Shown here piece after piece: positions 1 to 23,682 of a stretch of 64,000 bases of DNA. The first letter of the stretch is position 1; every line of letters begins with the position of its first letter. The notes under the pieces were generated by a model. The model was not told the origin of the DNA. It did not search any database and worked only from the letters and a program-made list of their open reading frames with translations. Source of the DNA: Delphinus delphis (Eukaryota > Chordata > Mammalia > Artiodactyla > Delphinidae); contig NW_027192650.1 in assembly GCF_949987515.2 (NCBI RefSeq), forward strand, positions 4,898,001 to 4,962,000. The letters run 5' to 3'. The position numbers were made by a program, and so were the translations under genes.

Positions 1-428
1 TGGTGTTTCCAGAAACATCTAAAAAACAAAGCAACAGAGCCTAGGGCACTGCCACTTATGGTCCTATAGCTTAGGGAAATTAAAATCAAAAAGACACAGC
101 CACCCCAAAGTTTGGGATGCCTCTGTTTAGAAGAACCTCGTTTACAGTACAAGTTCAACATCGCAGAAAGTGAAAAATGGATAAAGAAGTTGTGGTATTT
201 ACTTACAAAGCAATATCACTCAGCAATGAAATCTATGTCATCAGGCCCTTAGCAGCACAATGAGTGGATTCAGGTATGATGATTCTAACTGAAATAAGTC
301 ACACAGAAAAAGAAACATCATAAGATATCAGTAATACACGGAATGTAAACTTGGCTACACAGGAACTGAATTACAGAACAGAACAGGGTCTCAAATTTAG
401 AAAACCAACTTATGCTTGCTTAAGGGTA

Positions 429-437
429 AAGGTGAGT
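429..437 (+). promoter_or_regulatory. Splice-donor-like site AAG|GTGAGT (unit 1; recurs in nearly every unit)
   Basis: The sequence aaggtgagt matches the mammalian 5' splice-site consensus, with the cut before 432. It lies inside a stretch that reads aaaggtgagttgggg in almost all copies; unit 32 has aaggcgagt and unit 30 aagatgagt. No transcript is known to me, so this is a cryptic site at most. Confidence 0.3.
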
Positions 438-1021
438 TGGGGTGCTGCATAAAACCAGAGATTGAAATGAGCACAGATAAAGTTCCTTAAGCCAAATATG
501 GAATAGACAAGAGCTACTCCTTGCTCAACAAAATGGACTCAACACCGCATATTAAACGCCAAAGAATGTACCTGACTAGTAAGTATCTCAAAACCTATAG
601 ATTGCTATGTCTCCGAAAGAGAATCAAGCATGTGTACAGGGGCATAAACGCAGCAGTGATAGGATTGGAGAGGTTCGGTGAGCAAATGAAGACCCTTTGA
701 AGTCATATTGCATGGTACCCATTCCACGGGTTTCAACTACCCAGGTTTTAGGTATTCTGCCTTCAGCTAAAACATGCATGTGGAACCCAGAGTATGATCA
801 ACCATGTGATCGGGAGACGTGTTCAAATATGTCTCAGGTTTCCTCCCCTGGTACTCGGGTGCAACATTCCAGACGCTTTACTAACACTCTCCCCACTTGG
901 AGAGTCAGCGCCTTTAACCTCCTGTTTGGCACAGTTTGCAATTTCTGCGGAAGATGAACAGGAATAGCGAGAACCAATGAGAGGCTAGCTGGAGGTGTCT
1001 GGATGGGCAAATTTAACTCTC

Positions 1022-1034
1022 ATTTCCCACCAGG
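1022..1034 (+). promoter_or_regulatory. Splice-acceptor-like site tttcccaccag|g (unit 1; recurs in nearly every unit)
   Basis: A pyrimidine-rich run (ctcatttcccac) ends in cag at 1031-1033 and is followed by gaagagg. A branch-point-like tttaact lies just upstream. It is about 600 bp downstream of the donor-like site, so each unit carries a plausible donor and acceptor in the right order on the + strand. Use in a transcript is unproven. Confidence 0.28.
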
Positions 1035-1330
1035 AAGAGGAAATAACCAAAAGCTCAGTGTGCCGTACCGGAACCAGATTAGGGCCTGAAGCCATTCTGC
1101 GGTGTTGCGGCCAGCTCAAAAGAAAGCGAGTTGAAGAAAGGAGCTCAGGGGCACTGTAATTCACAAACCTGCAGAGTTATAAATGACAGTTATCATCCAA
1201 AAATAGACTGAAGTAAGGCTGCCAAGAGGACTTAAATGCGGGGCAGAATTGCAGGAAACCGATTTCAGGAGGTAGACTGGAATTGCATTGAAAGCATAGG
1301 AAAAGAGGCAGAACGTCCACAATGATGCAC

Positions 1331-1402
1331 TTGGCCAAAAAGGGCGTATGCGTTTTTTCCTGAATATATTCAGGAAAAAACGCATACGCCCTTTTTGGCC
1401 AA
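1331..1402. repeat. 72-bp spacer-free perfect palindrome (unit 1; one per unit)
   Basis: Two 36-bp arms meet between 1366 and 1367 with no spacer. The outer ends are TTGGCC...GGCCAA and the core is CCTGAATATATTCAGG. Each arm holds an A5 or T5 tract, the block GGGCGTATGCG or its complement, and a T6 or A6 tract. One copy occurs in each of the 40 complete units; 22 are perfect by my reading. A single strand could fold as a long hairpin and the duplex could extrude a cruciform. A role as protein-binding site, origin-related element or recombination site is inference only. Confidence 0.95.
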
Positions 1403-1580
1403 CCAACCAAGCTTGCAAAGGAAATCTGCACTACAATGAAGTCTCACTTCCCCCCGGTCAAAAGGGCCATCTGAAAAAAGTGTAAAATCCAGAAAGGCAG
1501 GACAGGCCATGGAGAACTGGGAGCCTTGTTATGCTGATGGGCGGGATGTAAATTGCCAACAACCACTCGGGAGAAGTGTA

Positions 1581-3158
1581 TGGTGTTTCCTGAAACATCT
1601 AAAAAACAAAGCAACAGAGCCTAGGGCACTTCCACTTATGGTCCTATAGCTTAGGGAAATTAAAATCAAAAAGACACAGCCACCCCAAAGTTTGGGACGC
1701 CTCCGTTTACAAGAACCTCGTTTACAGTACAAGTTCAATATCACAGAAAGTGAAAAATGGATAAAGAACTTGTGGTACTTACGTACAATGCAGTATCACA
1801 CAGCAATGAAATCTATGTCATCAGGCCCGTAGCAGCATAATGAGTGGATTCAGGTATGATGATTCTAACTGAAATAAGTCACACAGAAAAAGAAACATCA
1901 TAAGATATCACTAATACACGGAATGTAAACTTGGCTACACAGGAACTGCATTCCAAAACAAAACAGGGTCTCAAATTTAGAAAACCAACTTAAGCTTGCT
2001 TAAGGAGAAAGGTGAGTTGGGGTGCTGCATAAAACCAGAGATTGAAATGAGCACAGATAAAGTTCCTTAAGCCAAATATGGAATAGACAAGAGCTACACC
2101 TTGCTCAACGAAATGGACTCAAAACCCCATATTAAACGCCTAAGAATGTACCTGACTAGGAAGTATCTTAAAACCTATGGATTGCTATGTCTCCAAAAGA
2201 GAATCAAGCGTGTGTACAGGGGCATAAACGCAGCAGTGATAGGATTGGAGAGGTTCGGTGAGCAAATGAAGACCCTTTGAAGTCATATTGCATGGTACCC
2301 ATTACACGGGTCTCAACTCTCCAGGTTTAAGGTATTCTTCCTTCAGCTGAAACATGCATGTGGAACCCAGAGTATGATCAACCATGTGAACGGGAGACGT
2401 GTTCAAATATGTCTCAGTTTTCCTCCCCTGGTACTCGGGTGCAACATTCCAGACACTTTACTAACACTCTCCCTACTTGGAGAGTCAGTCCCTTCAACCT
2501 CCTGTTTGGCCCAGTTTTCAATTTCTGCAGAAGATGAACAGGAATAGCGAGAACCAATGAGAGGCTAGCTGGAGGTGTCTGGACGGGCAAATTTAACTCT
2601 CATTTCCCACCAGGAAGAGGAATTAACCAAAGGCTCAGCATGCCGGGCCGTAACCAGATTAGGGCCTGAAGCCATCCTGCGGTGTTGCGGCCAGGTCACA
2701 AGAAAGCGAGTTGAAGAAAGGAGCTCAGGGGCACTGTAATTCACAAACCTGCAGAGTTATAAATGACAGCTATCGTCCAAAAATAGACTGAAGTAAGGCT
2801 GCCAAGAGGACTTGAAAGCGGGGCAGAATTGCAGGAAACCGATTTCAGGAGGTAGACTGGAATTGCATTGAAAGCATAGGAAAAGAGGCAGAACGTCCAC
2901 AATGATGCACTTGGCCAAAAAGGGCGTATGCGTGTTTTCCTGAATATATTCAGGAAAACACGCATACGCCCTTTTTGGCCAACCAAGCAAGCTTGCAAAG
3001 GAAATCTGCACTACAATGAAGTCTCACTTCCCCCCGGTCAAAAGGGCCATCTGAAAAAAGTGTAAAATCCAGAAAGGCAACAGGCCATGGAGAACTGGGA
3101 GCCTTGTTATGCTGATGGGCGGGATGTAAATTGCCAACAGCCACTCTGGAGAAGTGTA
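1581..3158. repeat. Satellite unit 2
   Basis: 1,578 bp. Class A start (gggacgcctccg, ttcaatatcac, aacttgtggtacttacgtac). It has an extra HindIII-type aagcttg near 1990 where other units read atgcttg. Middle marker cccagag. The palindrome at 2911-2982 carries the paired T/G and A/C change. Near the end, ggcaacaggcc is 2 bp shorter than the usual ggcaggacaggcc. Confidence 0.96.
2911..2982. repeat. Palindrome with a matched change in both arms (unit 2)
   Basis: This copy is still a perfect 72-bp palindrome, but it differs from the consensus at two symmetric positions. These are T to G at 2934 in the left arm and A to C at 2959 in the right arm. The two positions sum to 5893, as do the palindrome ends, so they pair with each other. 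The following unit carries only the right-arm change. Confidence 0.93.
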
Positions 3159-4738
3159 TGGTGTTTCCTGAAACATCTAAAAAACAAAGCAACAGAGCCT
3201 AGGGCACTTCCACTTATGCTCCTATAGCTTAGGGAAATTAAAATCAAAAAGACACAGCCACCTCAAAGTTTGGGACGCCTCTGTTTACAAGAACCTCGTT
3301 TACTGTACAAGTTCAATATCACAGAAAGTGAAAAATGGATAAAGAACTTGTGGTACTTACGTACAATGCAGTATCACTCAGCAATGAAATCTATGTCATC
3401 AGGCCCATATCAGCATAATGAGTGGATTCAGGTACGATGATTCTAACTGAAATAAGTCACACAGAAAAAGAAACATCATAAGATATCACTAATAAACGGA
3501 ATGTAAACTTGGCTACACAGGAACTGAATTCCAAAACAGAACAGGGTCTCAAATTTAGAAAACCAACTTATGCTTGCTTAAGGGTAAAGGTGAGTTGGGG
3601 TGCTGCATAAAACCAGAGATTGAAATGAGCACAGATAAAGTTCCTTAAGCCAAATATGGAATAGACAAGAGCTACTCCTTGCTCAACGAAATGGACTCAA
3701 CACCGCATATTAAACGCCTAAGAATGTACCTGACTAGTAAGTATCTTAAAACCTATGGATTGCTATGTCTCCGAAAGAGAATCAAGCATGTGTACAGGGG
3801 CATAAACGCAGCAGTGATAGGATTGGAGAGGTTCGGTGAGCAAATGAAGACCCTTTGAAGTCATATTGCATGGTACCCATTCCACGGCTTTCAACTACCC
3901 AGGTTTAAGGTATTCTTCCTTCAGCTAAAACATGCATGTGGAACCTAGAGTATGATCAACCATGTGATTGGGAGACGTGTTCAAATATGTCTCAGTTTTC
4001 GTACCCTGGTACTCGGGTGCAACATTCCAGACGCTTTACTAACACTCTCCCGACTTGGAGAGTCAGCGCCTTTAACCTCCTGTTTGGCCCAGTTTGCAAT
4101 TTCTGCGGAAGATGAACAGGAATAGCGAGAACCAATGAGAGACTAGCTGGAGGTTTCTGGACGGGCAAATTTAACTCTCATTTCCCACCAGAAAGAGGAA
4201 ATAACCAAAGGCTCAGCATGCCGTGCCGGAACCAGATTAGGGCCTGAAGCCATCCTGCGGTGTTGCGGCCAGGTCACAAGAAAGCGAATTGAAGAAAGGA
4301 GCTCAGGGGCACTGTAATTCACAAACCTGCAGAGTTATAAATGACAGCTATCGTCCAAAAATATACTGAAGTAAGGCTGCCAAGAGGACTTGAAAGCGGG
4401 GCAGAATTGCAGGAAACCGATTTCAGGAGGTAGACTGGAATTGCATTGAAAGCATAGGAAAAGAGGCAGAACGTCCACAATGATGCACTTGGCCAAAAAG
4501 GGCGTATGCGTTTTTTCCTGAATATATTCAGGAAAACACGCATACGCCCTTTTTGGCCAACCAAGCAAGCTTGCAAAGGAAATCTGCACTACAATGAAGT
4601 CTCACTTCCCCCCGGTCAAAAGGGCCATCTGAAAAAAGTGTAAAATCCAGAAAGGCAGGACAGGCCATGGAGAACTGGGAGCCTTGTTATGCTGATGGGC
4701 GGGATGTAAATTGCCAACAACCACTTGGGAGAAGTGTA
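3159..4738. repeat. Satellite unit 3
   Basis: 1,580 bp. Class A start with ctgtacaag in place of c(a/c)gtacaag. Middle marker ctagag. The palindrome at 4489-4560 has a single right-arm mismatch at 4537. Confidence 0.96.
4489..4560. repeat. Palindrome with only the right-arm half of the unit 2 change (unit 3)
   Basis: The right arm has C at 4537 where the consensus has A, the same change as position 2959 of unit 2. The pairing left-arm base at 4512 is still T, so this copy has one mismatch. It looks like an intermediate between the consensus and the unit 2 form. Confidence 0.93.
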
Positions 4739-6316
4739 TGGTGTTTCGTGAAACATCTAAAAAACAAAGCAACAGAACCTAGGGCACTTCCACTTATGGT
4801 CCTATAGCTTAGGGAAATTAAAATCAAAAAGACACAGCAACCCCAAAGATTGGAACGGCTCTGTTTACAAGAACCTCGTTTACAATACAAGTTCAACATC
4901 GCAGAAAGTGAAAAATGGATAAAGAAGTTGTGGTATTTACTTACAAAGCAATATCACTCAGCAATGAAATCTGTGTCATCAGGACTTTAGCAGCACAATG
5001 AGTGGATTCAGGTATGATGATTCTAACTGAAATAAGTCACACAGAAAAAGAAACATCATAAGATATCTGTAATACACGGAATGTAAACTTGGCTACACAG
5101 GAACTGAATTACAGAACAGAACAGGGTCTCAAATTTAGAAAACCAACTTATGCTTGCTTAACAGGAAAGGTGAGTTGGGGTGCTGCATAAAACCAGAGAT
5201 TGAAATGAGCACAGATAAAGTTCCTTAAGCCAAATATGGAATAGACAAGAGCTACTCCTTGCTCAACGAAATGGACTCAACACCACATATTAAACGCCTA
5301 AGAATGTACCTGACTAGTAAGTATCTTAAAACCTATAGATTGCTATGTCTCCGAAAGAGAATCAAGCATGTGTACAGGGGCATAAACGCAGCAGTGATAG
5401 GATTGGAGAGGTTTGGTGAGCAAATGTAGACCCTTTGAAGTCATATTGCATGGTACCCATTACACGGGTTTCACTACCCAGGTTTTAGGTATTCTTCCTT
5501 CAGCTAAAACATGCATGTGGAACCCAGAGTATGATCAACCATGTGAACGGGAGACGTGTTCCAATATGTCTCAGTTTTCCTCCCCTGGTACTCGGGTGCA
5601 ACATTCCAGACGCTTTACTAACACTCTCCCCACTTGGAGAGTCAGTGCCTTTAACCTCCTGTTTGGCCCAGTTTGCCATTCTGCGGAAGATGTACAGGAA
5701 TAGGGAGAACCAATGAGAGACAAGCGGGAGGTGTCTGGACGGGCAAATTTAACTCTAATTTCCCACCAGGATGAGGAATTAACCAAAGGCTCAGCGTGCC
5801 GTGCCGGAACCAGATTAGGGCCTGAAGCCATCCTGCGGTGTTGCGGCCAGGTCACAAGAAAGCGAGTTGAAGAAAGGAGCTCAGGGGCACTGTAATTCAC
5901 AAACCTGCAGAGTTATAAATGACAGCTATCGTCCAAAAATAGACTGAAGTAAGGCTGCCAAGAGGCCTTGAAAGCGGGGCAGAATTGCAGGAAACCGATT
6001 TCAGGAGGTAGACTGGAATTGCATTGAAAGCATAGGAAAAGAGGCAGAACGTCCACAATGATGCACTTGGCCAAAAAGGGCGTATGCGTTTTTTCCTGAA
6101 TATATTCAGGAAAAAACGCATACGCCCTTTTTGGCCAACCAAGCAAGCTTGCAAAGGAAATCTGCACTACAATGAAGTCTCACTTCCCCCGGGTCAAAAG
6201 GGCCATCTGAAAAAATTGTAAAATCCAGAAAGGCAGGACAGGCCATGGAGAACTGGGAGCCTTGTTATGCTGATGGGCGGGATGTAAATTGCCAACAGCC
6301 ACTCTGGAGAAGTGTA
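4739..6316. repeat. Satellite unit 4
   Basis: 1,578 bp. Class B start with caatacaag. Middle marker cccagag. The later part has a rare haplotype: gatgtacaggaataggg, gagacaagcgggagg and accaggatgagg. It recurs only in unit 30. The palindrome at 6067-6138 is perfect. Confidence 0.96.
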
Positions 6317-7896
6317 TGGTGTTTCCTGAAACATCTAAAAAACAAAGCAACAGAGCCTAGGGCACTTCCACTTATGGTTCTATAGCTTAGGGAAATTAAA
6401 ATCAAAAAGACACAGCCACCCCAAAGTTTGGGACGCCTCTGTTTACAAGAACCTCGTTTACCGTACAAATTCAATATCACAGAAAGTGAAAAATGGATAA
6501 AGAACTTGTGGTACTTACGTACAATGCAGTATCACTCAGCCATGAAATCTATGTCATCAGGCCCGTAGCAGCATAATGAGTGGATTCAGGTACGATGATT
6601 CTAACTGAAATAAGTCACACAAAAAAAGAAACATCAAAAGATATCACTAATGCACGGAATGTAAACTTGGCTACACTGGAACTGAATTCCAAAACAGAAC
6701 AGGGTCTCACATTTAGAAAACCAACTTATGCTTGCTTAAGGGGAAAGGTGAGTTGGGGTGCTGCATAAAACCAGAGATTGAAATGAGCACAGATAAAGTT
6801 CCTTAAGCCAAATATGGAACAGACAAGAGCTACTCCTTGCTCAACGAAATGGACTCAACACCCCATATTAAACGCCTAAGAATGTACCTGACTAGTAAGT
6901 ATCTTAAAACCTAGGGATTGCTATGTCTCCGAAAGAGAATCAAGCGTGTGTACTGGGGCATAAATGCAGCAGTGATAGGATTGGAGAGGTTCGGTGAGCA
7001 AATGAAGACCCTTTGAAGTCATATTGCATGGTACACATTCCACGGGTCTCAACTGTCCAGGTTTAAGGTATTCTTCCTTCAGCTAAAACATGCATGTGGA
7101 ACCCAGAGTATGATCAACCGTGTGCTCGGGAGACGTGTTCAAATATGTCTCAGTTTTCATACCCTGGTACTCGGGTGCAACATTCCAGATGCTTTACTAA
7201 CACTCTCCCGACTTGGACAGTCAGTGCCTTTAACCTCCTGTTTGGCACAGTTTGCAATTTCTGCGGAAGATGAACAGGAATAGTGAGAACCAATGAGAGA
7301 CTAGCTGGAGGTGTCTGAACGGGCAAATTTAACTCTCATTTCCCACCAGGAAGAGGAATTAACCAAAGGCTCAGCGTGCCGTGCCGGAACCAGATTAGGG
7401 CCTGAAGCCATCCTGCGGTGTTGCGGCCAGGTCACAAGAAAGCGAGTTGAAGAAAGGAGCTCAGGGGCACTGTAATTCACAAACCTGCAGAGTTATAAAT
7501 GACAGCTATCGTCCAAAAATAGACTGAAGTAAGGCTGCCAAGAGGACTTGAAAGCGGGGCAGAATTGCAGGAAACCGATTTCAGGAGGTAGACTGGAATT
7601 GCATTGAAAGCATAGGAAAAGAGGCAGAACGTCCACAATGATGCACTTGGCCAAAAAGGGCGTATGCGTTTTTTCCTGAATATATTCAGGAAAAAACGCA
7701 TACGCCCTTTTTGGCCAACCAAGCAAGCTTGCAAAGGAAATCTGCACTACAATGAAGTCTCACTTCCCCCGGGTCAAAAGGGCCATCTGAAAAAAGTGTA
7801 AAATCCAGAAAGGCAGGACAGGCCATGGAGAACTGGGAGCCTTGTTATGCTGGTGAGCGGGATGTAAATTGCCAACAGACACTCGGGAGAAGTGTA
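6317..7896. repeat. Satellite unit 5
   Basis: 1,580 bp. Class A start with taccgtacaaattc. It carries acatcaaaagat, tacactggaac, cctagggattg and tactggggcataaatg, shared with units 6 and 31. Middle marker cccagag, with gtgtgctcggg. The palindrome at 7647-7718 is perfect. Confidence 0.96.
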
Positions 7897-9476
7897 TGGT
7901 GTTTCCTGAAACATCTAAAAAACAAAGCAACAGAGCCTAGGGCACTTCCACTTATGGTCCTATAGCTTAGGGAAATTAAAATCAAAAAGACACAGCCACC
8001 CCAAAGTTTGGGACGCCTCTGTTTACAAGAACCTCGTTTACCGTACAAGTTCAATATCACAGAAAGTGAAAAATGGATAAAGAACTTGTGGTACTTACGT
8101 ACAATGCAGTATCACTCAGCAATGAAATCTATGTCATCAGGCCCGTAGCAGCATAATGAGTGGATTCAGGTACGATGATTCTAACTGAAATAAGTCACAC
8201 AGAAAAAGAAACATCAAAAGATATCACTAATACACGGAATGTAAACTTGGCTACACTGGAACTGAATTCCAAAACAGAACAGGGTCTCAAATTTAGAAAA
8301 CCAACTTATGCTTGCTTAAGGGGAAAGGTGAGTTCGGGTGCTGCATAAAACCAGAGATTGAAATGAGCACAGATAAAGTTCCTTAAGCCAAATATGGAAC
8401 AGACAAGAGCTACTCCTTGCTCAACGAAATGGACTCAACACCCCATATTAAACGCCTAAGAATGTACCTGACTAGTAAGTATCTTAAAACCTAGGGATTG
8501 CTATGTCTCCGAAAGAGAATCAAGCGTGTGTACTGGGGCATAAATGCAGCAGTGATAGGATTGGAGAGGTTCGGAGAGCAAATGAAGACCCTTTGAAGTC
8601 ATATTGCATGGTACCCGTTCCACGGGTCTCAACTCTCCAGGTTTAAGGTATTCTTCCTTCAGCTAAAACATGCATGTGGAACCCAGAGTATGATCAACCG
8701 TGTGATCGGGAGACGTGTTCAAATATGTCTCAGTTTTCCTCCCCTGGTACTCGGATGCAACATTCCAGACGCTTTACTAACACTCTCCCGACTTGGAGAG
8801 TCAGTCCCTTTAACCTCCTGTTTGGCCCAGTTTGCAATTTCTGCGGAAGATGAACAGGAATAGCGAGAACCAATGAGAGACTAGCTGGAGGTGTCTGGAC
8901 GGGCAAATTTAACTCTCATTTCCCACCAGTAAGAAGAATTAACCAAAGGCTCAGCATGCCGGGCCAGAACCAGATTAGGGCCTGAAGCCATCCTGCGGTG
9001 TTGCGGCCAGGTCACAAGAAAGCGAGTTGAAGAAAGGAGCTCAGGGGCACTGTAATTCACAAACCTGCAGAGTTATAAATGACAGCTATCGTCCAAAAAT
9101 AGACTGAAGTAAGGCTGCCAAGAGGACTTGAAAGCGGGGCAGAATTGCAGGAAACCAATTTCAGGAGGTAGACTGGAATTGCATTGAAAACATAGCAAAA
9201 GAGGCAGAACGTCCACAATGATGCACTTGGCCAAAAAGGGCGTATGCGTTTTTTCCTGAATATATTCAGGAAAAAACGCATACGCCCTTTTTGGACAACC
9301 AAGCAAGCTTGCAAAGGAAATCTGCACTACAATGAAGTCTCACTTCCCCCCGGTCAAAAGGGCCATCTGAAAAAAGTGTAAAATCCAGAAAGGCAGGACA
9401 GGCCATGGAGAACTGGGAGCCTTTTTATGCTGATGGGCGGGATGTAAATTGCCAACAGACATTCGGGAGAGGTGTA
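7897..9476. repeat. Satellite unit 6
   Basis: 1,580 bp. Class A start, same haplotype as unit 5 (cctagggattg, tactggggcataaatg). The palindrome at 9227-9298 has a right-arm mismatch (ttggacaa for ttggccaa). Confidence 0.96.
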
Positions 9477-11055
9477 TGGTGTTTCCTGAAACATCTAAAA
9501 AACAAAGCAACAGAACCTAGGGCACTTCCACTTATGGTCCTATAGATTAGGGAATTTAAAATCAAAAAGACACAGCCACCCCAAAGTTTCGAACAGCTCT
9601 GTTTACAAGAACCTCGTTTACAGTACAAGTTCAACATCGCAGAAAGTGAAAAATGGATAAAGAAGTTGTGGTATTTACTTACAAAGCAATATCACTCAGC
9701 AATGAAATCTATGTCATCAGGCCCTTAGCATCACAATGAGTGGATTCAGGTATGATGATTCTAACTGAAATAAGTCACACAGAAAAAGAAACATCATAAG
9801 ATATCAATAATACACGGAATGTAAACTTGGCTACACAGGAACTGAATTACAGAACAGAACAGGGTCTCAAATTTAGAAAACCAACTTATGCTTGCTTAAG
9901 GCTAAAGGTGAGTTGGGGTGCTGCATAAAACCAGAGATTGAAATGAGCACAGATAAAGTTCCTTAAGTCAAATATGGAATAGAGAAGAGCTACTCCTTGG
10001 TCAACAAAATGGACTCAACACCGCATATTAAACGCCTAACTATGTACCTGACTAGTAAGTATCTTAAAACCTATGGATTGCTATGTCTCCGAAAGAGAAT
10101 CAAGCATGTGTACAGGGGCATAAACGCAGCAGTGATAGGATTGGAGAGGTTCGGTGAGCAAATGAAGACCCTTTGAAGTCATATTGCATGGTACCCATTA
10201 CACGGGTCTCAACTCTCCAGGTTTAAGGTATTCTTCCTTCAGCTAAAACATGCATGTGGAACCCAAGTATGATCAACCATGTGAACGGGAGACGTGTTCA
10301 AATATGTCTCAGTTTTCCTCCCCTGGTACTCGGGTGCAACATTCCAGACGCTTTACTAACACTCTCCCCACTTGGAGAGTCAGCGCCTTTAACCTCCTGT
10401 TTGGCCCTGTTTGCAATTTCTGCGGAAGGTGAACAGGAATAGCGAGAACCAATGAGAGACTAGCTGGAGGTGTCTGGACGGGCAAATTTAACTCTCATTT
10501 CCCACCAGGAAGAGGAATTAACCAAAGGCTCAGCGTGCCGTGCCGGAACCAGATTAGGGCCTGAAGCCATCCTGCGGTGTTGCGGCCAGGTCACAAGAAA
10601 GCGAGTTGAAGAAAGGAGCTCAGGGACACTGTAATTCACAAACCTGCAGAGTTATAAATGACAGCTATCGTCCAAAAATAGACTGAAGTAAGGCTGCCAA
10701 GAGGACTTGAAAGCGGGGCAGAATTGCAGGAAACCGATTTCAGGAGGTAGACTGGAATTGCATTGAAAGCATAGGAAAAGAGGCAGAACGTCCATAATGA
10801 TGCACTTGGCCAAAAAGGGCGTATGCGTTTTTTCCTGAATATATTCAGGAAAAAACGCATACGCCCTTTTTGGCCAACCAAGCAAGCTTGCAAAGGAAAT
10901 CTGCACTACAATGAAGTCTCACTTCCCCCCGGTCAAAAGGGCCATCTGCAAAAAGTGTAAAATCCAGAAAGGCAGGACAGGCCATGGAGAACTGGGAGCC
11001 TTGTTATGCTGATGGGCGGGATGTAAATTGGCAACAGACACTCGGGAGAAGTGTA
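9477..11055. repeat. Satellite unit 7
   Basis: 1,579 bp. Class B start with the variant tttcgaacagctctg, shared only with unit 10. Middle marker cccaag (1 bp shorter than cccagag). The palindrome at 10806-10877 is perfect. A private change gives gtccataatgatg just upstream of it. Confidence 0.96.
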
Positions 11056-12633
11056 TGGTGTTTCCTGAAACATATAAAAAGCAAAGCAACAGAGCCTAGG
11101 GCACTGCCACATATGGTCCTATAGCTTAGGGAAATTAAAATAAAAAAGACACAGCAACCCCAAAGTTTGGGACGCCTCTGTTTACAAGAACCTCGTTTAC
11201 AGTACAAGTTCAACATCGCAGAAAGTGAAAAATGGATAAAGAACTTGTGGTACTTACGTACAATGCAGTATCACTCAGCAATGAAATCTATGTCATCAGG
11301 CCCGTAGCAGCATAATGAGTGGATTCAGGTACGATGATTCTAACTGAAATAAGTCACACAGAAAAAGAAACATCATAAGATATCACTAATACACGGAATG
11401 TAAACTTGGCTACACAGGAACTGCATTCCAAAACAGAACAGGGTCTCAAATTTAGAAAACCAACTTATGCTTGCTTAAGGGGAAAGGTGAGTTGGGGTGC
11501 TGCATAAAACCAGAGATTGAAATGAGCACAGATAAAGTTCCTTAAGCCAAATATGGAATAGACAAGAGCTACTCCTTGGTCAACGAAATGGACTCAAAAC
11601 CCCATATTAAACCCCTAAGAATGTACCTGACTAGTAAGTATCTTAAAACCTATGGATTGCTATGTCTCCAAAAGAGAATCAAGCGTGTGTACAGGGGAAT
11701 GAACGCAGCAGTGATAGGATTGGAGAGGTTCGGTGAGCAAATGAAGACCCTTTGAAGTCATATTGCATGGTACCCATTACACGGGTCTCAACTCTCCAGG
11801 TTTAAGGTATTCTTCCTTCAGCTAAAACATGCATGAGGAACCCAAGTATGATCAACCATGTGAATGGGAGACGTGTTCAAATATGTCTCAGTTCTCCTCC
11901 CCTGGTACTCGGGTGTAACATTCCAGACGCTTTACTAACACTCTCCCCACTTGGAGAGTCAGCGCCTTTAACCTCCTGTTTGGCCCAGTTTGCAATTTCT
12001 GAGGAAGATGAACAGGAATAGCGAGAACCAATGAGAGACTAGCTGGAGGTGTCTGGACGGGCAAATTTAACTCTCATTTCCCACCAGGAAGAGGAAATAA
12101 CCAAAGGCTCAGCGTGCCGTACCGGAACCAGATTAGGGCCTGAAGCCATCCTGCGGTGTTGCGGCCAGGTCACAAGAAAGCGAGTTGAAGAAAGGAGCTC
12201 AGGGGCACTGTAATTCACAAACCTGCAGAGTTATAAATGACAGCTATCGTCCAAAAATAGACTGAAGTAAGTCTGCCAAGAGGACTTGAAAGCGGGGCAG
12301 AATTGCAGGAAACCGATTTCAGGAGGTAGACTGGAATTGCATTGAAAGCATAGGAAAAGAGGCAGAACGTCCACAATGATGCACTTGGCCAAAAAGGGCG
12401 TATGCGTTTTTTCCTGAATATATTCAGGAAAAAACGCATACGCCCATTTTGGCCAACCAAGCAAGCTTGCAAAGGAAATCTGCACTACAATGAAGTCTCA
12501 CTTCCCCCGGTCAAAAGGGGTATCTGAAAAAAGTGTAAAATCCAGAAAGGCAGGACAGGCCCTGGAGAACTGGGAGCCTTGTTATGCTGATGGGCGGGAT
12601 GTAAATTGCCAACAGACACTCCGGACAAGTGTA
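11056..12633. repeat. Satellite unit 8
   Basis: 1,578 bp. Mosaic start: gggacgcct with caacatcgc, then aacttgtggtacttacgtac of class A. Middle marker cccaag with gcatgaggaac. The palindrome at 12385-12456 has a right-arm mismatch (gcccattttgg). The C run after it is one base shorter. Confidence 0.96.
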
Positions 12634-14212
12634 TGGTGTTTCCTGAAACATCTAAAAAACAAAGCAACAGAGCCTAGGGCACTTCCACTTATGGTCCTAT
12701 AGCTTAGGGAAATTAAAATCGAAAAGACACAGCCACCCCAAAGTTTGGGACGCCTCTGTTTACAAGAACCTCGTTTACAGTACAAGTTCAACATTGCAGA
12801 AAGTGAAAAATGGATAAAGAAGTTTTGGTATTTACGTACAATGCAGTATCACTCAGCAATGAAATCTATGTCATCAGGCCCGTAGCAGCATAATGAGTGG
12901 ATTCAGGTACGATGATTCTAACTTGAATAAGTCACACAGAAAAAGAAACATCATAAGATATCAGTAATACACGGAATGTAAACTAGGCTACACAGGAACT
13001 GAATTACAGAACAGAACAGGGTCTCAAATTTAGAAAACCAACTTATGCTTGCTCAAGGGTAAAGGTGAGTTGGGGCGCTGCATAAAACCAGAGATTGAAA
13101 TGACCACAGATAAAGTTCCTTAATTCAAATATGGAATAGACAAGAGCTACTCCTTGCTCAACGAAATGGACTCAACACCGCATATTAAACGCCTAAGAGT
13201 GTACCTGACTAGTAAGTATCGTAAAACCTATGCATTGCTATGTCTCCAAAAGAGAATCAAGCGTGTGTACAGGGGCATAAACGCAGCAGTGATAGGATTG
13301 GAGAGGTTCGGTGAGCAAGTGAAGACCCTTTGAAGTCATATTGCATGGTACCCATTACACAGGTCTCAACTCTCCAGGTTTAAGGTATTCTTCCTTCAGC
13401 TAAAACATGCATGTGGAACCCAAGTATGATCAACCATGTGAACGGGAGACGTGTTCAAATATGTCTCAGTTTTCCTCCCCTGGTACTCGGGTGCAACATT
13501 CCAGACACTTTACTAACACTCTCCCCACTTGGAGAGTCAGCGCCTTTAACATCCTGTTTGGCTCAGTTTGCAATTTCTGCGGAAGATGAACAGGAATAGC
13601 GAGAACCAATGAGAGGCTAGCTGGAGGTGTCTGGACGGGCAAATTTAACTCTCATTTCCCACCAGGAAGAGGAAATAACCAAAGGCTCAGCGTGCCGTGC
13701 CGGAACCAGATTAGGGCCTGAAGCCATCCTGCGGTGTTGCGGCCAGCTCAAAAGAAAGCGAGTTGAAGAAAGGAGCTCAGGGGCACTGTAATTCACAAAC
13801 CTGCAGAGTTATAAATGACAGCTATCGTACAAAAATAGACTGAAGTAAGGCTGCCAAGAGGACTTGAAAGCGGGGCAGAATTGCAGGAAACCGATTTCAG
13901 GAGGTAGACTGGAATTGCATTGAAAGCATAGGAAAAGAGGCAGAACGTCCACAATGATGCACTTGGCCAAAAAGGGCGTATGCGTTTTTTCCTGAATATA
14001 TTCAGGAAAAAACGCATACGCCCTTTTTGGCCAACCAAGCAAGCTTGCAAAGGAAATCTGCTCTACAGTGAAGTCTCACTACCCCCCAGTCAAAAGGGGC
14101 ATCTGCAAAAAGTGTAAAATCCAGAAAGGCAGGGCAGGCCATGGAGAACTGGGAGCCTTGTTATGCTGAAGGGTGGGATGTAAATTGCCAACAACCACTC
14201 GGGAGATGTGTA
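12634..14212. repeat. Satellite unit 9
   Basis: 1,579 bp. Mosaic start: gggacgcct, caacattgc, then aagttttggtatttacgtacaatg, mixing class A and B bases within 40 bp. Middle marker cccaag. The palindrome at 13963-14034 is perfect. Confidence 0.96.
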
Positions 14213-15789
14213 TGGTGTTTCCTGAAACATCTAAAAAACAAAGCAACAGAGCCTAGGGCACTTCCACTTATGGTCCTATAGCTTAGGGAATTTAAAATCA
14301 AAAAGACACAGCCACCCCAAAGTTTCGAACAGCTCTGTTTACAAGAACCTCGTTTACAGTACAAGTTCAACATCGCAGAAAGTGAAAAATGGATAAAGAA
14401 GTTGTGGTATTTACTTACAAAGCAATATCAATCAGCAATGAAATCTGTGTCATCAGGCCCTTAGCAGCACAATGAGTGGATATAGGTATGATGATTCTAA
14501 CTGAAATAAGTCACACAGAAAAAGAAACATCATAAGATATCAATAATACACGGAATGTAAACTTGGCTACACAGGAACTGAATTACAGAACAGAACAGGG
14601 TCTCAAATTTAGAAAACCAACTTATGCTTGCTTAAGGGTAAAGGTGAGTTGGGGTGCTGCATAAAACCAGAGATTGAAATGAGCACAGATAAAGTTCCTT
14701 AAGTCAAATATGGAATAGACAAGAGCTACTCCTTGCTCAACGAAATGGACTCAACACCGCATATTAAACGCCTAAGAATGTACCTGACTAGTAAGTATCT
14801 TAAAACCTGTGGATTGCTATGTCTCTGAAAGAGAATCAAGCATGTGTACAGGGGCATAAACGCAGCAGTGATAGGATTGGAGAGGTTCGGTGAGCAAATG
14901 AAGACCCTTTGAAGTCATATTGCATGGTACCCATTACATGGGTCTCAACTCTCCAGGTTTAAGGTATTCTTCCTTCAGCTAAAACATGCATGTGGAACCC
15001 AAGTATGATCAACCATGTGAACGGGAGACGTGTTCAAATATGTCTCAGTTTTCCTCCCCTGGTACTCGGGTGCAACATTCCAGACGCTTTACTAACACTC
15101 TCCCCACTTGGAGAGTCAGCGCCTTTAACCTCCTGTTTGGCCCAGTTTGCAATTTCTGCGGAAGGTGAACAGGAATAGCGAGAACCAATGAGAGACTACC
15201 TGGAGGTGTCTGGACGGGCAAATTTAACTCTCATTTCCCACCAGGAAGAGGAATTAACCAAAGGCTCAGCGTGCCGTGCCGGAACCAGATTAGGGACTGA
15301 AGCCATCCTGCGGTGTTGCGGCCAGGTCACAAGAAAGCGAGTTGAAGAAAGGAGCTCAGGGGCACTGTAATTCACAAACCTGCAGAGTTATAAATGACAG
15401 CTATCGTCCAAAAATAGACTGAAGTAAGGCTGCCAAGAGGACTTGAAAGCGGGGCAGAATTGCAGGAAACCGATTTCAGGAGGTAGACTGGAATTGCATT
15501 GAAAGCATAGGAAAAGAGGCAGAACGTCCACAATGATGCACTTGGCCAAAAAGGGCGTATGCGTTTTTTCCTGAATATATTCAGGAAAAAACGCATACGC
15601 CCTTTTTGGCCAACCAAGCAAGCTTGCAAAGGAAATCTGCACTACAATGAAGTCTCACTTCCCCCCGGTCAAAAGGGCCATCTGCAAAAAGTGTAAAATC
15701 CAGAAAGGCAACAGGACATTGAGAACTGGGAGCCTTGTTATGCTGATGGGCGGGATGTAAATTGCCAACAGACACTTGGGAGAAGTGTA
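14213..15789. repeat. Satellite unit 10
   Basis: 1,577 bp. Class B start with tttcgaacagctctg as in unit 7. Middle marker cccaag. The palindrome at 15542-15613 is perfect. Near the end, ggcaacaggacattg carries the 2-bp deletion also seen in units 2, 18 and 31. Confidence 0.96.
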
Positions 15790-17367
15790 TGGTGTTTCCT
15801 GAAACATCTAAAAAACAAAGCAACAGAGCCTAGGGCACTTCCACTTATGGTCCTATAGCTTAGGGAAATTAAAATCAAAAAGACACAGCCACCCCAAAGT
15901 TTGGAACGGCTCTGTTTACAAGAACCTCGTTTACAGTACAAGTTCAACATCGCAGAAAGTGAAAAATGGATAAAGAACTTGTGGTACTTACGTACAATGC
16001 AGTATCACTCAGCAATGAAATCTATGTCATCAGGCCCGTAGCAGCATAATGAGTAGATTCAGGTACGATGATTCTAACTGAAATAAGTCACACAGAAAAA
16101 GAAACATCATAAGATATCACTAATACACGGAATGTAAACTTGACTACACAGGAACTGAATTCCAAAATAGAACAGGTTCTCAAATTTAGAAAACCAACTT
16201 AGCTTGCTTAAGGGGAAAGGTGAGTTGGGGTGCTGCATAAAACCAGAGATTGAAATGAGCACAGATAAAGTTCCTTAAGCCAAATATGGAATAGACAAGA
16301 GCTACTCCTTGCTCAACGAAATGGACTCAACACTGCATATTAAACGCCTAAGAATGTACCTGACTAGTAAGTATCTTAAAACCTATGGATTGCTATGTCT
16401 CCGAAAGAGAATCAAGCATGTGTACAGGGGCATAAACGCAGCAGTGATAGGATTGGAGAGGTTCGGTGAGCAAATGAAGACCCTTTGAAGTCATATTGCA
16501 TGGTACCCATTCCACGGGTCTCAACTCTCCAGGTTTAAGGTATTCTTCCTTCAGCTAAAACATGCATGTGGAACCCAAGTATGATCAACCATGTGAACGG
16601 GAGACGTGTTGAAATATGTCTCAGTTTTCCTCCCCTGGTACTCGGGTGCAACATTCCAGACGCTTTACTAACACTCTCCCCACTTGGAGAGTCAGCGCCT
16701 TTAACCTCCTGTTTGGCCCAGTTTGCAATTTCTGCGGAAGATGAACAGGAATAGCGAGAACCAATGAGAGGCTAGCTGGAGGTGTCTGGACGGGCAAATT
16801 TAACTCTCATTTCCCACCAGGAAGAGGAAATAACCAAAGGCTCAGCGTGCCGTACCGGAACCAGATTAGGGCCTGAAGCCATCCTGCGGTGTTGCGGCCA
16901 GCTCAAAAGAAAGCGAGTTGAAGAAAGGAGCTCAGGGGCACTGTAATTCACAAACCTGCAGAGTTATAAATGACAGCTATCGTCCAAAAATAGACTGAAG
17001 TAAGGCTGCCAAGAGGACTTGAAAGCGGGGCAGAATTGCAGGAAACCGATTTCAGGAGGTAGACTGGAATTGCATTGAAAGCATAGGAAAAGAGGCAGAA
17101 CGTCCACAATGATGCACTTGGCCAAAAAGGGCGTATGCGTTTTTTCCTGAATATATTCAGGAAAAAACGCATACGCCCTTTTTGGCCAACCAAGCAAGCT
17201 TGCAAAGGAAATCTGCACTACAATGAAGTCTCACTTCCCCCCGGTCAAAAGGGCCATCTGAAAAAAGTGTAAAATCCAGAAAGGCAGCACAGGCCATGGA
17301 GAAATGGGAGCCTTGTTATTCTGAAGGGCGGGATGTAAATTGCCAACAACCACTCGGGAGAAGTGTA
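15790..17367. repeat. Satellite unit 11
   Basis: 1,578 bp. Mosaic start: ggaacggct and caacatcgc (class B), then aacttgtggtacttacgtac (class A). A 1-bp loss gives acttagcttgc. Middle marker cccaag. The palindrome at 17118-17189 is perfect. The end reads gaaatgggag, leading into class C unit 12. Confidence 0.96.
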
Positions 17368-18946
17368 TGGTGTTTCCTGAAACATCTAAAAAACAAAGCA
17401 ACAGAGCCTAGGGCACTTCCACTTATGGTCCTATAGCTTAGGGAAATTAAAATCAAAAAGACACAGCCACCCCAAAATTTGAAACGGCTCCGTTTACAAG
17501 AACCTCCTTTACAGTACAAGTTCAACATCGCAGAAAGTGAAAAATGGATAAAGAAGTTGTGGTATTTACTTACAAAGCAATATCACTCAGCAATGAAATC
17601 TGTGTCATCAGGCCCTTAGCACCACAGTGAGTGGATTCAGGTATGATGATTCTAACTGAAATAAGTCACACAGAAAAAGAAACATCATAAGATATCAGTA
17701 ATACACAGAATGTAAACTTGGCTACACAGGAACTGAATTACAGAACAGAACAGGGTCTCAAATTTAGAAAACCAACTTATGCTTGCTTAAGGGTAAAGGT
17801 GAGTTGGGGTGCTGCATAAAACCAGAGATTGAAATGAGCACAGATAAAGTTCCTTAAGTCAAATATGGAATAGACAAGAGCTACTCCTTGCTCAACGAAA
17901 TGGACTCAACACCGCATATTAAACGCCTAAGAAGGTACCTGACTAGTAAGTATCTTAAAACCTATGGATTGCTATGTCTCTGAAAGAGAATCAAGCATGT
18001 GTACAGGGGCATAAACGCAGCAGTGATAGGATTGGAGAGGTTCGTGAGCAAATGAAGACCCTTTGAAGTCATATTGCATGATACCCATTCCACGGGTTTC
18101 AACTACCCAGGTTTAAGGTATTCTTCCTTCAGCTAAAACATGCATGTGGAACCTAGAGTATGATCAACCATGTGATCGGGAGACGTGTTCAAATATGTCT
18201 CAGTTTTCGTACCCTGGTACTCGGGTGCAACATTCCAGACGCTTTACTAACACTCTCCCCACTTGGAGAGTCAGTCCCTTTAACCTCCTGTTTGGCCCAG
18301 TTTGCAATTTCTGCGGAAGATGAACAGGAATAGCGAGAACCAATGAGAGACTAGCTGGAGGTGTCTGGACGGGCAAATTTAACTCTCATTTCCCACCAGG
18401 AAGAGGAATTAACCAAAGGCTCAGCATGCCGGGCCAGAACCAGATTAGGGCCTGAAGCCATCCTGCGGTGTTGCGGCCAGCTCACAAGAAAGCGAGTTGA
18501 AGAAAGGAGCTCAGGGGCACTGTAATTCACAAACCTGCAGAGTTATAAATGACAGCTATCGTCCAAAAATAGACTGAAGTAAGGCTGCCAAGAGGACTTG
18601 AAAGCGGGGCAGAATTGCAGGAAACCGATTTCAGGAGGTAGACTGGAATTGCATTGAAAGCATAGGAAAAGAGGCAGAACGTCCACAATGATGCACTTGG
18701 CCAAAAAGGGCGTATGCGTTTTTTCCTGAATATATTCAGGAAAAAACGCATACGCCCTTTTTGGCCAACCAAGCAAGCTTGCAAAGGAAATCTGCACTAC
18801 AATGAAGTCTCACTTCCCCCCGGTCAAAAGGGCCATCTGAAAAAAGTGTAAAATCCAGAAAGGCAGGACAGGCCATGGAGAACTGGGAGCCTTGTTATGC
18901 TGATGGGCGGGATGTAAATTGCCAACAGACACTCAGGAGAAGTGTA
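17368..18946. repeat. Satellite unit 12 (class C)
   Basis: 1,579 bp. Class C start (aaaatttgaaacggctccg, aacctcctttacag). It carries gaaggtacctgac and a 1-bp loss in ggttcgtgagc. Middle marker ctagag. The palindrome at 18697-18768 is perfect. Closely matched by units 15 and 18. Confidence 0.96.
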
Positions 18947-20526
18947 TGGTGTTTCCTGAAATATCTAAAAAACAAAGCAACAGAGCCTAGGGCACTTCCA
19001 CTTATGGTCCTATAGCTTAGGGAAATTAAAATCAAAAAGACACAGCCACCCCAAAGTTTGGGACGCCTCCGTTTACAAGAACCTCGTTTACCGTACAAGT
19101 TGAATATCACAGAAAGTGAAAAATGGATAAAGAACTTGTGGTACTTACGTACAATGCAGTATCACTCAGCAATGAAATCTATGTCATCAGGCCCGTAGCA
19201 GCATAATGAGTGGGTTCAGGTACGATGATTCTAACTGAAATAAGTCACACAGAAAAAGAAACATCATAAGATATCACTAATACACGGAATGTAAACTTGG
19301 CTACACAGGAACTGCATTCCAAAACAGAACAGGGTCTCAAATTTAGAAAACCAACTTATGCTTGCTTAAGGGGAAAGGTGAGTTGGGGTGCTGCATAAAA
19401 CCAGAGATTGAAATGAGCACAGATAAAGTTTCTTAAGCCAAATATGGAATAGACAAGAGCTACTCCTTGCTCAACGAAATGGACTCAAAACCCCATATTA
19501 AACGCCTAAGAATGTACCTGACTAGTAAGTATCTTAAAACCTATGGATTGCTATGTCTCTGAAAGAGAATCAAGTGTGTGTACAGGGGCATAAACGCAGC
19601 AGTGATAGGATTGGAGAGGTTCGGTGAGCAAATGAAGACCCTTTGAAGTCATATTGCATGGTACCCATTACACGGGTCTCAACTCTCCAGGTTTAAGGTA
19701 TTCTTCCTTCAGCTAAAACATGCATGTGGAACCCAGAGTATGATCAAACATGTGAACGGGAGACGTGTTCAAATATGTCTCAGTTTTCCTCCCCTGGTAC
19801 TCGGGTGCAACATTCCAGACGCTTTACTAACACTCTCCCCACTTGGAGAGTCAGTCCCTTTAACCTCCTGTTTGTCCCAGTTTGCAATTTCTGTGGAAGA
19901 TGAACAGGAATAGCGAGAACCAATGAGAGGCTATCTGGAGGTGTCTGGACGGGCAAATTTAACTCTCATTTCCCACCAGGAAGAGGAATTAACCAAAGGC
20001 TCAGCATGCCGGGCCGGAACCAGATTAGGGCCTGAAGCCATCCTGCGGTGTTGCGGCCAGGTCACAAGAAAGCGAGTTGAAGAAAGGAGCTCAGGGGCAC
20101 TGTAATTCACAAACCTGCAGAGTTATAAATGACAGCTATCGTCCAAAAATAGACTGAAGTAAGGCTGCCAAGAGGACTTGAAAGCGGGGCAGAATTGCAG
20201 GAAACCGATTTCAGGAGGTAGACTGGAATTGCATTGAAAGCATAGGAAAAGAGGCAGAACGTCCACAATGATGCACTTGGCCAAAAAGGGCGTATGCGTT
20301 TTTTCCTGAATATATTCAAGAAAAAACGCATACGCCCTTTTTGGCCAACCAAGCAAGCTTGCAAAGGAAATCTGCACTACAATGAAGTCTCACTTCCCCC
20401 CGGTCAAAAGGGCCATCTGAAAAAAGTGTAAAATCCAGAAAGGCAGGACAGGCCATGGAGAACTGGGAGCCTTGTTATGCTGATGGGCGGGATGTAAATT
20501 GCCAACAGCCACTCCGGAGAAGTGTA
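18947..20526. repeat. Satellite unit 13
   Basis: 1,580 bp. Class A start with ccg and gttgaatatcac. Middle marker cccagag with gatcaaacatg. The palindrome at 20277-20348 has a right-arm mismatch (attcaagaaa for attcaggaaa). Confidence 0.96.
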
Positions 20527-22103
20527 TGGTGTTTCCTGAAACATCTAAAAAACAAAGCAACAGAGCCTAGGGCACTTCCACTTATGGTCCTATAGCTTAG
20601 GGAAATTAAAATCAAAAAACACAGCCACCCCAAAGTTTGGAACGGCTCTGTTTACAAGAACCTCGTTTACAGTACAAGTTCAACATCGCAGAAAGTGAAA
20701 AATGGATAAAGAAGTTGTGGTATTTACTTACAAAGCAATATCACTCAGCAATGAAATCTGTCATCAGGCCCTTAGCAGCACAATGAGTGGATTCAGGTAT
20801 GATGATTCTAACTGAAATAAGTCACACAGAAAAAGAAACATCATAAGATATCAGTAATACACGGAATGTAAACTTGGCTACACAGGAACTGAATTACAGA
20901 ACAGAACAGGGTCTCAAATTTAGAAAACCAACTTATGCTTGCTTAAGGGTAAAGGTGAGTTGGGGTGCTGCATAAAACCAGAGATTGAAATGAGCACAGA
21001 TAAAGTTCCTTAAGCCAAATATGGAATAGACAAGAGCTACTCATTGCTCAACGAAATGGACTCAACACCGCATATTAAACGCCTAAGAATGTACCTGACT
21101 GGTAAGTATCTTAAAACCTATGGACTGCTATGTCTCCGAAAGAGAATCAAGCATGTGTACAGGGGCATAAACGCACCAGTGATAGGATTGGAGAGGTTCG
21201 GTGAGCAAATGAAGACCCTTTGAAGTCATATTGCATGGTACCCATTACACGGGTCTCAACTCTCCAGGTTTAAGGTATTCTTCCTTCAGCTAAAACATGC
21301 ATGTGGAACCCAAGTATGATCAACCATGTGAACGGGAGACGTGTTCAAATATGTCTCAGTTTTCCTCCCCTGGTACTCGGGTGCAACATTCCAGACGCTT
21401 TACTAACACTCTCCCCACTTGGAGAGTCAGTGCCTTTAACCTCCTGTTTGGCCCAGTTTGCAATTTCTGCGGAAGATGAACAGGAATAGCGAGAACCAAT
21501 GAGAGACTAGCTGGAGGTGTCTGGACGGGCAAATTTAACTCTCATTTCCCACCAGGAAGAGGAAATAACCAAAGGCTCAGCGTGCCGTGCCGGAACCAGA
21601 TTAGGGCCTGAAGCCATCCTGCGGTGTTGCGGCCAGCTCAAAAGAAAGCGAGTTGAAGAAAGGAGCTCAGGGGCACTGTAATTCACAAACCTGCAGAGTT
21701 ATAAATGACAGCTATCGTCCAAAAATAGACTGAAGTAAGGCTGCCAAGAGGACTTGAAAGCGGGGCAGAATTGCAGGAAACCGATTTCAGGAGGTAGACT
21801 GGAATTGCATTGAAAGCATAGGAAAAGAGGCAGAACGTCCACAATGATGCACTTGGCCAAAAAGGGCGTATGCGTTTTTTCCTGAATATATTCAGGAAAA
21901 AACGCATACGCCCTTTTTGGCCAACCAAGCAAGCTTGCAAAGGAAATCTGCACTACAATGAAGTCTCACTTCCCCCCCGGTCAAAAGGGCCATCTGAAAA
22001 AAGTGTAAAATCCAGAAAGGCAGTACAGGCCATGGAGAAATGGGAGCCTTGTTATGCTGAAGGGCGGGATGTAAATTGCCAACAACCACTCGGGAGAAGT
22101 GTA
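20527..22103. repeat. Satellite unit 14
   Basis: 1,577 bp. Class B start. It carries aaatctgtcatc (2-bp loss), tactcattgctc, cctgactggtaag, tggactgctatg and acgcaccagtg, all shared with unit 16. Middle marker cccaag. The palindrome at 21853-21924 is perfect. The C run after it is one base longer. Confidence 0.96.
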
Positions 22104-23682
22104 TGTTGTTTCCTGAAACATCTAAAAAACAAAGCAACAGAACCTAGGGCAATTCCACTTATGGTCCTATAGCTTAGGGCAATTAAAATCAAAAAGACAC
22201 AGCCACCCCAAAATTTGAAACGGCTCCGTTTACAAGAACCTCCTTTACAGTACAAGTTCAACATCGCAGAAAGTGAAAAATGGATAAAGAAGTTGTGGTA
22301 TTTACTTACAAAGCAATATCACTCAGCAATGAAATCTGTGTCATCAGGCCCTTAGCAGCACAATGAGTGGATTCAGGTATGATGATTCTAACTGAAATAA
22401 GTCACACAGAAAAAGAAACATCATAAGATATCAGTAATACACAGAATGTAAACTTGGCTACACAGGAACTGAATTACAGAACAGAACAGGGTCTCAAATT
22501 TAGAAAACCAACTTATGCTTGCTTAAGGGTAAAGGTGAGTTGGGGTGCTGCATAAAACCAGAGATTGAAATGAGCACAGATAAAGTTCCTTAAGTCAAAT
22601 ATGGAATAGACAAGAGCTACTCCTTGCTCAACGAAATGGACTCAACACCGCATATTAAACGCCTAAGAAGGTACCTGACTAGTAAGTATCTTAAAACCTA
22701 TGGATTGCTATGTCTCTGAAAGAGAATCAAGCATGTGTACAGGGGCATAAACGCAGCAGTGATAGGATTGGAGAGGTTCGTGAGCAAATGAAGACCCTTT
22801 GAAGTCATATTGCATGGTACCCATTCCACGGGTTTCAACTACCCAGGTTTAAGGTATTCTTCCTTCAGCTAAAACATGCATGTGGAACCTAGAGTATGAT
22901 CAACCATGTGATCGGGAGACGTGTTCAAATATGTCTCAGTTTTCGTACCCTGGTACTCGGGTGCAACATTCCAGACGCTTTACTAACACTCTCCCCACTT
23001 GGAGAGTCAGCGCCTTTAACCTCCTGTTTGGCCCAGTTTGCAATTTCTGCGGAAGATGAACAGGAATAGTGAGAACCAATGAGAGACTAGCTGGAGGTGT
23101 CTGGACGTGCAAATTTAACTCTCATTTCCCACCAGGAAGAGGAATTAACCAAAGGCTCAGCATGCCGGGCCAGAACCAGATTAGGGCCTGAAGCCATCCT
23201 GCGGTGTTGCGGCCAGCTCACAAGAAAGCGAGTTGAAGAAAGGAGCTCAGGGGCACTGTAATTCACAAACCTGCAGAGTTATAAATGACAGCTATCGTCC
23301 AAAAATAGACTGAAGTAAGGCTGCCAAGAGGACTTGAAAGCGGGGCAGACTTGCAGGAAACCGATTTCAGGAGGTAGACTGGAATTGCATTGAAAGCATA
23401 GGAAAAGAGGCAGAACGTCCACAATGATGCACTTGGCCAAAAAGGGCGTATGCGTTTTTTCCTGAATATATTCAGGAAAAAACGCATACGCCCTTTTTGG
23501 CCAACCAAGCAAGCTTGCAAAGGAAATCTGCACTACAATGAAGTCTCACTTCCCCCCGGTCCAAAGGGCCATCTGAAAAAAGTGTAAAATCCAGAAAGGC
23601 AGGACAGGCCATGGAGAACTGGGAGCCTTGTTATGCTGATGGGCGGGATGTAAATTGCCAACAGACACTCGGGAGAAGTGTA
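22104..23682. repeat. Satellite unit 15 (class C)
   Basis: 1,579 bp. Class C copy with tgttgtttcc at its start, shared with unit 18. It also has gaaggtacctgac and ggttcgtgagc. Middle marker ctagag. The palindrome at 23433-23504 is perfect. Confidence 0.96.

Follow-up and report, generated by a model that had tools for sequence, protein, structure and literature searches.

A 72-bp spacer-free palindrome in a cetacean satellite array appears unchanged between related satellites while its flanks diverge

The whole stretch of DNA analysed here, 64,000 bases in length and referred to as the window, is a satellite array (Table 1) in which one palindrome follows the next at a spacing of 1573-1581 bp. 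Tandem Repeats Finder reports nothing for this array because its period limit is 500. The satellite is already known, and its features are those of an L1-containing satellite of the common cetacean type. A 1,579-bp unit is the dolphin-family form of the common cetacean satellite. In the title of the original description, the common cetacean satellite is presented as a killer whale component of 1,579 bp (Widegren, Arnason and Akusjarvi 1985, cited in PMC7763226), and the head-to-tail consensus unit of the window has exactly this length. LINE-1 content of the common cetacean satellite is given in the available text of two reviews (PMC9659126, PMC6947457). The window unit likewise contains a likely LINE-1 3' coding remnant: the 26-residue translation of positions 172-249 matches the C-terminal end of solved LINE-1 ORF2p chains, with an E value of 0.077 that is weak when taken alone. 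Both unit length and L1 content agree with the common cetacean satellite. No tRNA gene was found. No description of the palindrome is apparent in the titles and opening lines of abstracts listed for the satellite literature.

Table 1. Positions of the array, its palindromes and the other features discussed (window coordinates)
Feature	Position	Strand	Remarks
Satellite array	1..64000	+	head-to-tail; consensus unit 1,579 bp; 40 palindrome copies
Likely LINE-1 ORF2 C-terminal coding-end remnant	172..249	+	E 0.077; the 4 listed matches are all to LINE-1 ORF2p
Low-variation block around the palindrome	1135..1494	+	first unit; consensus columns 504-864; ~360 bp
Second overlapping chance reading frame crossing the palindrome	1161..1418	-	also used as bait; without coding selection
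Chance reading frame crossing the palindrome	1177..1431	-	bait for relatives; without coding selection
Perfect spacer-free 72-bp palindrome, first of 40 copies	1331..1402		36-nt arms 1331-1366 and 1367-1402
Palindrome copy whose arms share a matched change	2911..2982		still perfect; differs from consensus
Neighbour copy of 2911	4489..4560		only one half of that matched change
Sole palindrome copy with more than one mismatch	47116..47187		five mismatches ungapped; two plus a one-base deletion once aligned

The closest pairs of units within the array include 11-14, 14-17, 13-16 and 15-18 (positions ~16418-29040 of the window). The members of these pairs lie three units from each other, as if a block of three units had recently been duplicated. 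Close similarity (0.4-0.9% apart) is also seen among units 38-40.

Among the 40 copies of the palindrome, 22 are perfect, 17 have one mismatch between the arms and one is worse. This recount reproduces exactly the figures of the original prediction, which had given 40 copies, 22 of them perfect, and a single mismatch in 17 of the 18 imperfect ones. A match of 36 pairs would arise by chance with a frequency of about 0.25^36 per position, as estimated from the base composition of the window. A scan for inverted repeats in a single unit (632-2210; seed 9, minimum 12) reported the palindrome and no other. The fold predicted for it consists of a 34-bp stem and a four-base loop, with z scores of -13.6 as RNA and -15.4 as DNA relative to shuffled sequences. 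According to this model it is possible that the palindrome forms a hairpin.

Two overlapping frames on the minus strand, both open over 84-85 codons, span the palindrome, and a protein encoded there could keep it. The changes observed in both frames are, however, those expected without selection, stops included. In frame 1177..1431 there are 24 synonymous, 53 non-synonymous and 2 stop changes (expected fractions 0.257, 0.703 and 0.041), while frame 1161..1418 has 21, 55 and 3 (expected fractions 0.249, 0.711 and 0.040); about three stop changes are expected in either case, and 35 of the 38 ungapped units are intact. Frameshifts are, furthermore, frequent in the relatives described below. The neutral counts in both frames refute coding as an explanation for the conservation of the palindrome, and the probability of a protein-coding frame is negligible.

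Inside the array, differences from the consensus affect 0.73% of the palindrome sites (21/2,880) as compared to 2.1% elsewhere in the unit. The 288 bp that surround the palindrome in consensus columns 504-864 are equally quiet, however (0.72%, compared to 2.4-2.5% in the remaining unit). The original point that the palindrome is kept inside the array is thus not specific to it, as its near flanks vary just as little. With regard to the rate of variation, the expected deficit thus exists relative to the unit average and vanishes relative to the immediate flanks.

Palindrome and near flanks together make up a block of about 360 bp, 72 bp of it the palindrome, that lies at the same place in every unit and shows about one third of the variability found in the remainder. 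The block is present in both halves of the array, and when all substitutions were considered, none of 2,000 CpG-stratified column shuffles produced an equally quiet 360-bp block. Singleton columns are fewer in the flank portion of the block (odds ratio 0.63), and the deficit is much larger for columns that vary in at least four units (0.17). Since singletons and especially common variants are both reduced, the block suggests recent local homogenisation. Against this stands the finding that the 360-bp window with the fewest singletons lies elsewhere, in columns 268-627 (scan P 0.06). As a random 360-bp block would contain the palindrome with an estimated chance of ~18%, the coincidence of block and palindrome proves little.

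Relatives of the unit in other arrays were obtained as translated matches in short ENA and JGI metagenome contigs and were compared at the protein level. Used as bait, the two chance frames yielded 28 and 8 matches, one of which is common to both. Because a word-based search may favour conserved stretches and thereby introduce ascertainment bias, a second bait consisted of the left flank alone (residues 1-64 of P0004); it yielded 58 matches. Both arms of the palindrome are retained in 49 of these translated contigs, part of the palindrome is deleted in two (P0042, P0060), one ends inside it (P0054) and six lose homology before it is reached. The palindrome is thus neither absent nor decayed among the relatives, in agreement with the original view of a sequence that is kept.

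For the comparison with the flanks, 32 of the 58 relatives were used, each with at least 40 aligned right-flank residues; the other 26 align fewer and were left out. Identity to the window amounts to 90% in the palindrome (662/736) and 60% in the right flank (948/1,580), and in 32/32 relatives covering both the palindrome is the closer of the two. When the consensus of these 32 is set against the window, 0/23 residues differ in the palindrome, 18/50 in the right flank and 4/8 in the left flank, where the eight residues are part of the bait. Six of the 17 right-flank residues nearest to the palindrome already belong to the consensus differences, that is, the palindrome has a sharp edge at the protein level.

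Single copies mutate about as much in the palindrome as in the flank. The mean minor fraction among the relatives is 10% in the palindrome and 13% in the right flank, 11 and 22 amino-acid variants, respectively, occur within the window (gapped units left out), and 48 of 54 translated copies deviate within the palindrome. An MK-like Fisher test for polymorphism without divergence in the palindrome yielded p = 0.0046 by variants and 0.0076 by columns. The palindrome consensus differs in its behaviour from its copies: between the two unit families it appears to be unchanged, with mutations apparently fixed in the flank, in a comparison of two consensus sequences at the protein level that draws on translations of short metagenome contigs. 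That the palindrome stays unchanged in related satellites while the adjoining DNA changes suggests that it is the hairpin itself that is being kept. What is new in our findings is this between-array evidence, according to which the palindrome appears to be kept while its flanks diverge.

A fairly unlikely alternative is that the palindrome is a functionless, passive fossil, which either entered after the flanks had diverged or was spread between the families by gene conversion. Variation within the array that resembles that of the flanks would agree with such a fossil, as would the quiet block with its suggestion of recent homogenisation at that place, and satellites built from fragments of dispersed elements are common according to the available text of two reviews (PMC9659126, PMC6947457). 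On the other hand, the conserved stretch stops sharply at the edge of the palindrome (0/23, then 6/17 and 4/8), and this counts against gene conversion because conversion tracts would take the flank along. Furthermore, the divergent single copies P0015, P0017 and P0020 keep 20 or 21 of the 23 palindrome residues, although the bait by which they were found held the palindrome.

The original prediction had also offered the palindrome as a site of breakage that drives the exchange of units, be it as a fragile site or as a cruciform promoting unequal exchange. The very stable predicted fold, the valley of diversity around the palindrome and the 2/58 relatives with a deletion inside it as well as the 1/58 ending there would be in line with fragility. 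Linkage disequilibrium was assessed for 79 sites by comparing pairs that span the palindrome with non-spanning pairs at matched distance. For distance bins of 400-800 bp, mean r2 is slightly lower across the palindrome (0.036-0.054) than elsewhere (0.044-0.057), but it is nearly unchanged and thus reveals no exchange hotspot, at a resolution where no common-site pair closer than 200 bp spans the palindrome and short conversion tracts would escape. The proposed link between breakage and unit exchange is not supported by this result. Hotspots of breakage are, moreover, subject to the hotspot paradox: broken intact copies get replaced by mutated ones. Breakage-driven conversion would consequently lose the palindrome rather than keep it, and we consider a fragile site very unlikely.

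The arms were also compared with each other. Of 72 proteins, 54 contain an ungapped palindrome stretch and 51 were used, P0054, P0056 and P0064 being left out because frame or homology is lost. In 5 of the 51 copies, two residues are altered in a way that complementary substitutions at mirrored bases could produce; these pairs are of four kinds. Column permutation gave a mean of 0.6 such rows and reached five rows in 1 of 3,000 and four kinds in 5 of 3,000 cases; with margin-preserving swaps, five rows were reached in 1 and four kinds in 9 of 1,500. Twelve false axes gave 0 to 3 rows, with axis 70 the highest. Two of the four kinds use residues that other base changes might give too, and a strict version of the test, limited to residue changes with one possible single-base cause, retained two rows (mean 0.08, reached in 6 of 3,000; 0 to 1 rows at false axes). 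Since a false axis reaches three rows as compared to five at the true axis, the apparent excess of changes fitting mirroring across the arms is suggestive only. The pair present in P0036 and P0038 fits the matched change of the window copy at 2911, and the copy at 4489 holds one half of it. Most changes in the palindrome are not mirrored. With so many copies present, selection can hardly act on each of them individually, and mirrored changes therefore point to a mutational process, for example template switching or hairpin repair between the arms. Such arm-to-arm correction would slow divergence but not stop it and cannot alone explain the 0/23 differences between the consensus sequences.

With regard to its origin, the palindrome resembles hairpins of ruminants. 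Six published sequences from cattle and goat, which belong to the miR-2284/2285 type or resemble it (PMC6203363, PMC4401794, PMC3498112, as far as their available text and tables go), were combined into a composite that matches the arm at 22 of 28 positions in one ungapped register and departs from it at the other 6. None of 20,000 mononucleotide shuffles did as well, a probability that is optimistic because the miR-2284/2285 family was picked from remembered likeness. The composite comprises five small RNAs and one primer for a goat small RNA, with some row labels in PMC6203363 that look shifted; it includes one added indicine sequence and, of the seven sequences that were also compared singly, omits the Hsmar1 core as well as goat PC-5p-203577_2, whose score in the palindrome is no better than outside. 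When the published sequences were taken singly and compared with dinucleotide shuffles over the whole unit, none was significant, as 57 to 500 of 500 shuffles reached the score. The miR-2284/2285 hairpins derive from a mariner MITE. In the available text of PMC6785219, a transposon origin is given for mir-548 and the mir-2284 family is named beside it; that of PMC3847189 describes the miR-2284 family as cattle-specific and contains neither transpos- nor mariner.

The human element MADE1, source of hsa-mir-548, is an 80-bp palindrome of two 37-bp repeats with 6 bp between them (PMC1784062, in part). The satellite palindrome is similarly near-complete over its 72 bp and is, as is typical of MITEs, short and non-coding. 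It differs from palindromic mariner MITEs such as MADE1 in having no spacer, in residing inside a tandem satellite and in lacking an adjoining TA; no TA target-site duplication is present in the consensus flanks directly adjoining the 72 bp. For the Hsmar1 end core, 489 of 500 shuffles score as well in the palindrome. The likeness of the arm to the ruminant hairpins renders a mariner-type miniature transposon the likely source, and the palindrome is probably descended from a miniature inverted-repeat element of the mariner type. We do not file it as a mariner MITE because a flanking TA is missing and the Hsmar1 core does not align better than shuffles. A DNA scan of viral contigs for the palindrome or the ruminant hairpin gave no matches. 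Among genome contigs the one match, in a Clostridiaceae MAG (L001), has no second arm beside it by eye and was taken as chance.

The same likeness bears on the idea that the palindrome is kept as a source of hairpin RNA, miRNA or siRNA, as similar ruminant hairpins are. Its arm resembles small RNAs of cattle and goat, and MADE1 has given rise to hsa-mir-548, as stated above. However, no Rfam family reached the gathering score over the 64,000 bases, and by our reasoning a perfect 34-bp stem favours siRNA over miRNA. Models of miRNAs gave several sub-threshold hairpin matches in positions 1-3600 (best E 3.8e-5), which may be what any strong hairpin could yield. A hairpin RNA is, all in all, a highly improbable reason for retention.

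It is also conceivable, but doubtful, that arrays need the palindrome as a binding site for a symmetric protein dimer, e.g. a transposase-derived or heterochromatin protein. The sequence and not symmetry alone is unchanged between the two consensus sequences, as would be expected of a binding site, and SETMAR binds mariner end repeats and MADE1 in vivo in human cells (PMC6326780, PMC8327481, available text). SETMAR is, however, described as a co-opted gene of primates (PMC8994322, by its title), the arm matches the Hsmar1 end core no better than shuffles do, and the core of the CENP-B box has no match in the 64-kb window even with one mismatch allowed.

The reading that we prefer, with a probability somewhat short of even, is that copies with an intact palindrome are favoured when arrays are seeded or spread. 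A mariner-type miniature inverted-repeat element would have entered the satellite unit; its single copies would mutate like their flanks, and those that go on to seed arrays or to spread through them would mostly be those in which the palindrome is intact. The palindrome would then be a cis-acting, hairpin-forming element of satellite turnover, whose arms might occasionally be copied onto each other by template switching or hairpin repair, leaving mirrored changes. We infer three of the components of this model, namely that the palindrome came from a transposon, that it forms a hairpin or cruciform in vivo and that it plays a part in spread. Within the array of the window, variation in the palindrome is as high as in its flanks, and this speaks against the spread of intact copies. 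We are more sceptical about the palindrome as a selfish licence, whereby only intact units could found or spread arrays, the sequence would be frozen between families and the arms would repair each other; this appears unlikely.

Why some units of a satellite spread through it and others fail to is an old open question. A short element that mutates at an ordinary rate within arrays and has the same consensus from family to family offers a candidate turnover signal acting in cis, and one that can be tested. For this mammalian repeat, long-read assemblies should now permit a direct test.

Some of the relatives are rearranged. In P0069, P0054 and P0050 the unit is joined to L1 ORF2-like or other sequence, and these are either real junctions or assembly chimeras; the break with the unit falls inside the palindrome in P0054 and shortly ahead of it in P0050. 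The deletions in P0042 and P0060 lie within the palindrome. P0042 has one arm, and in P0060 the A-tracts of both arms are seemingly joined, as in hairpin slippage.
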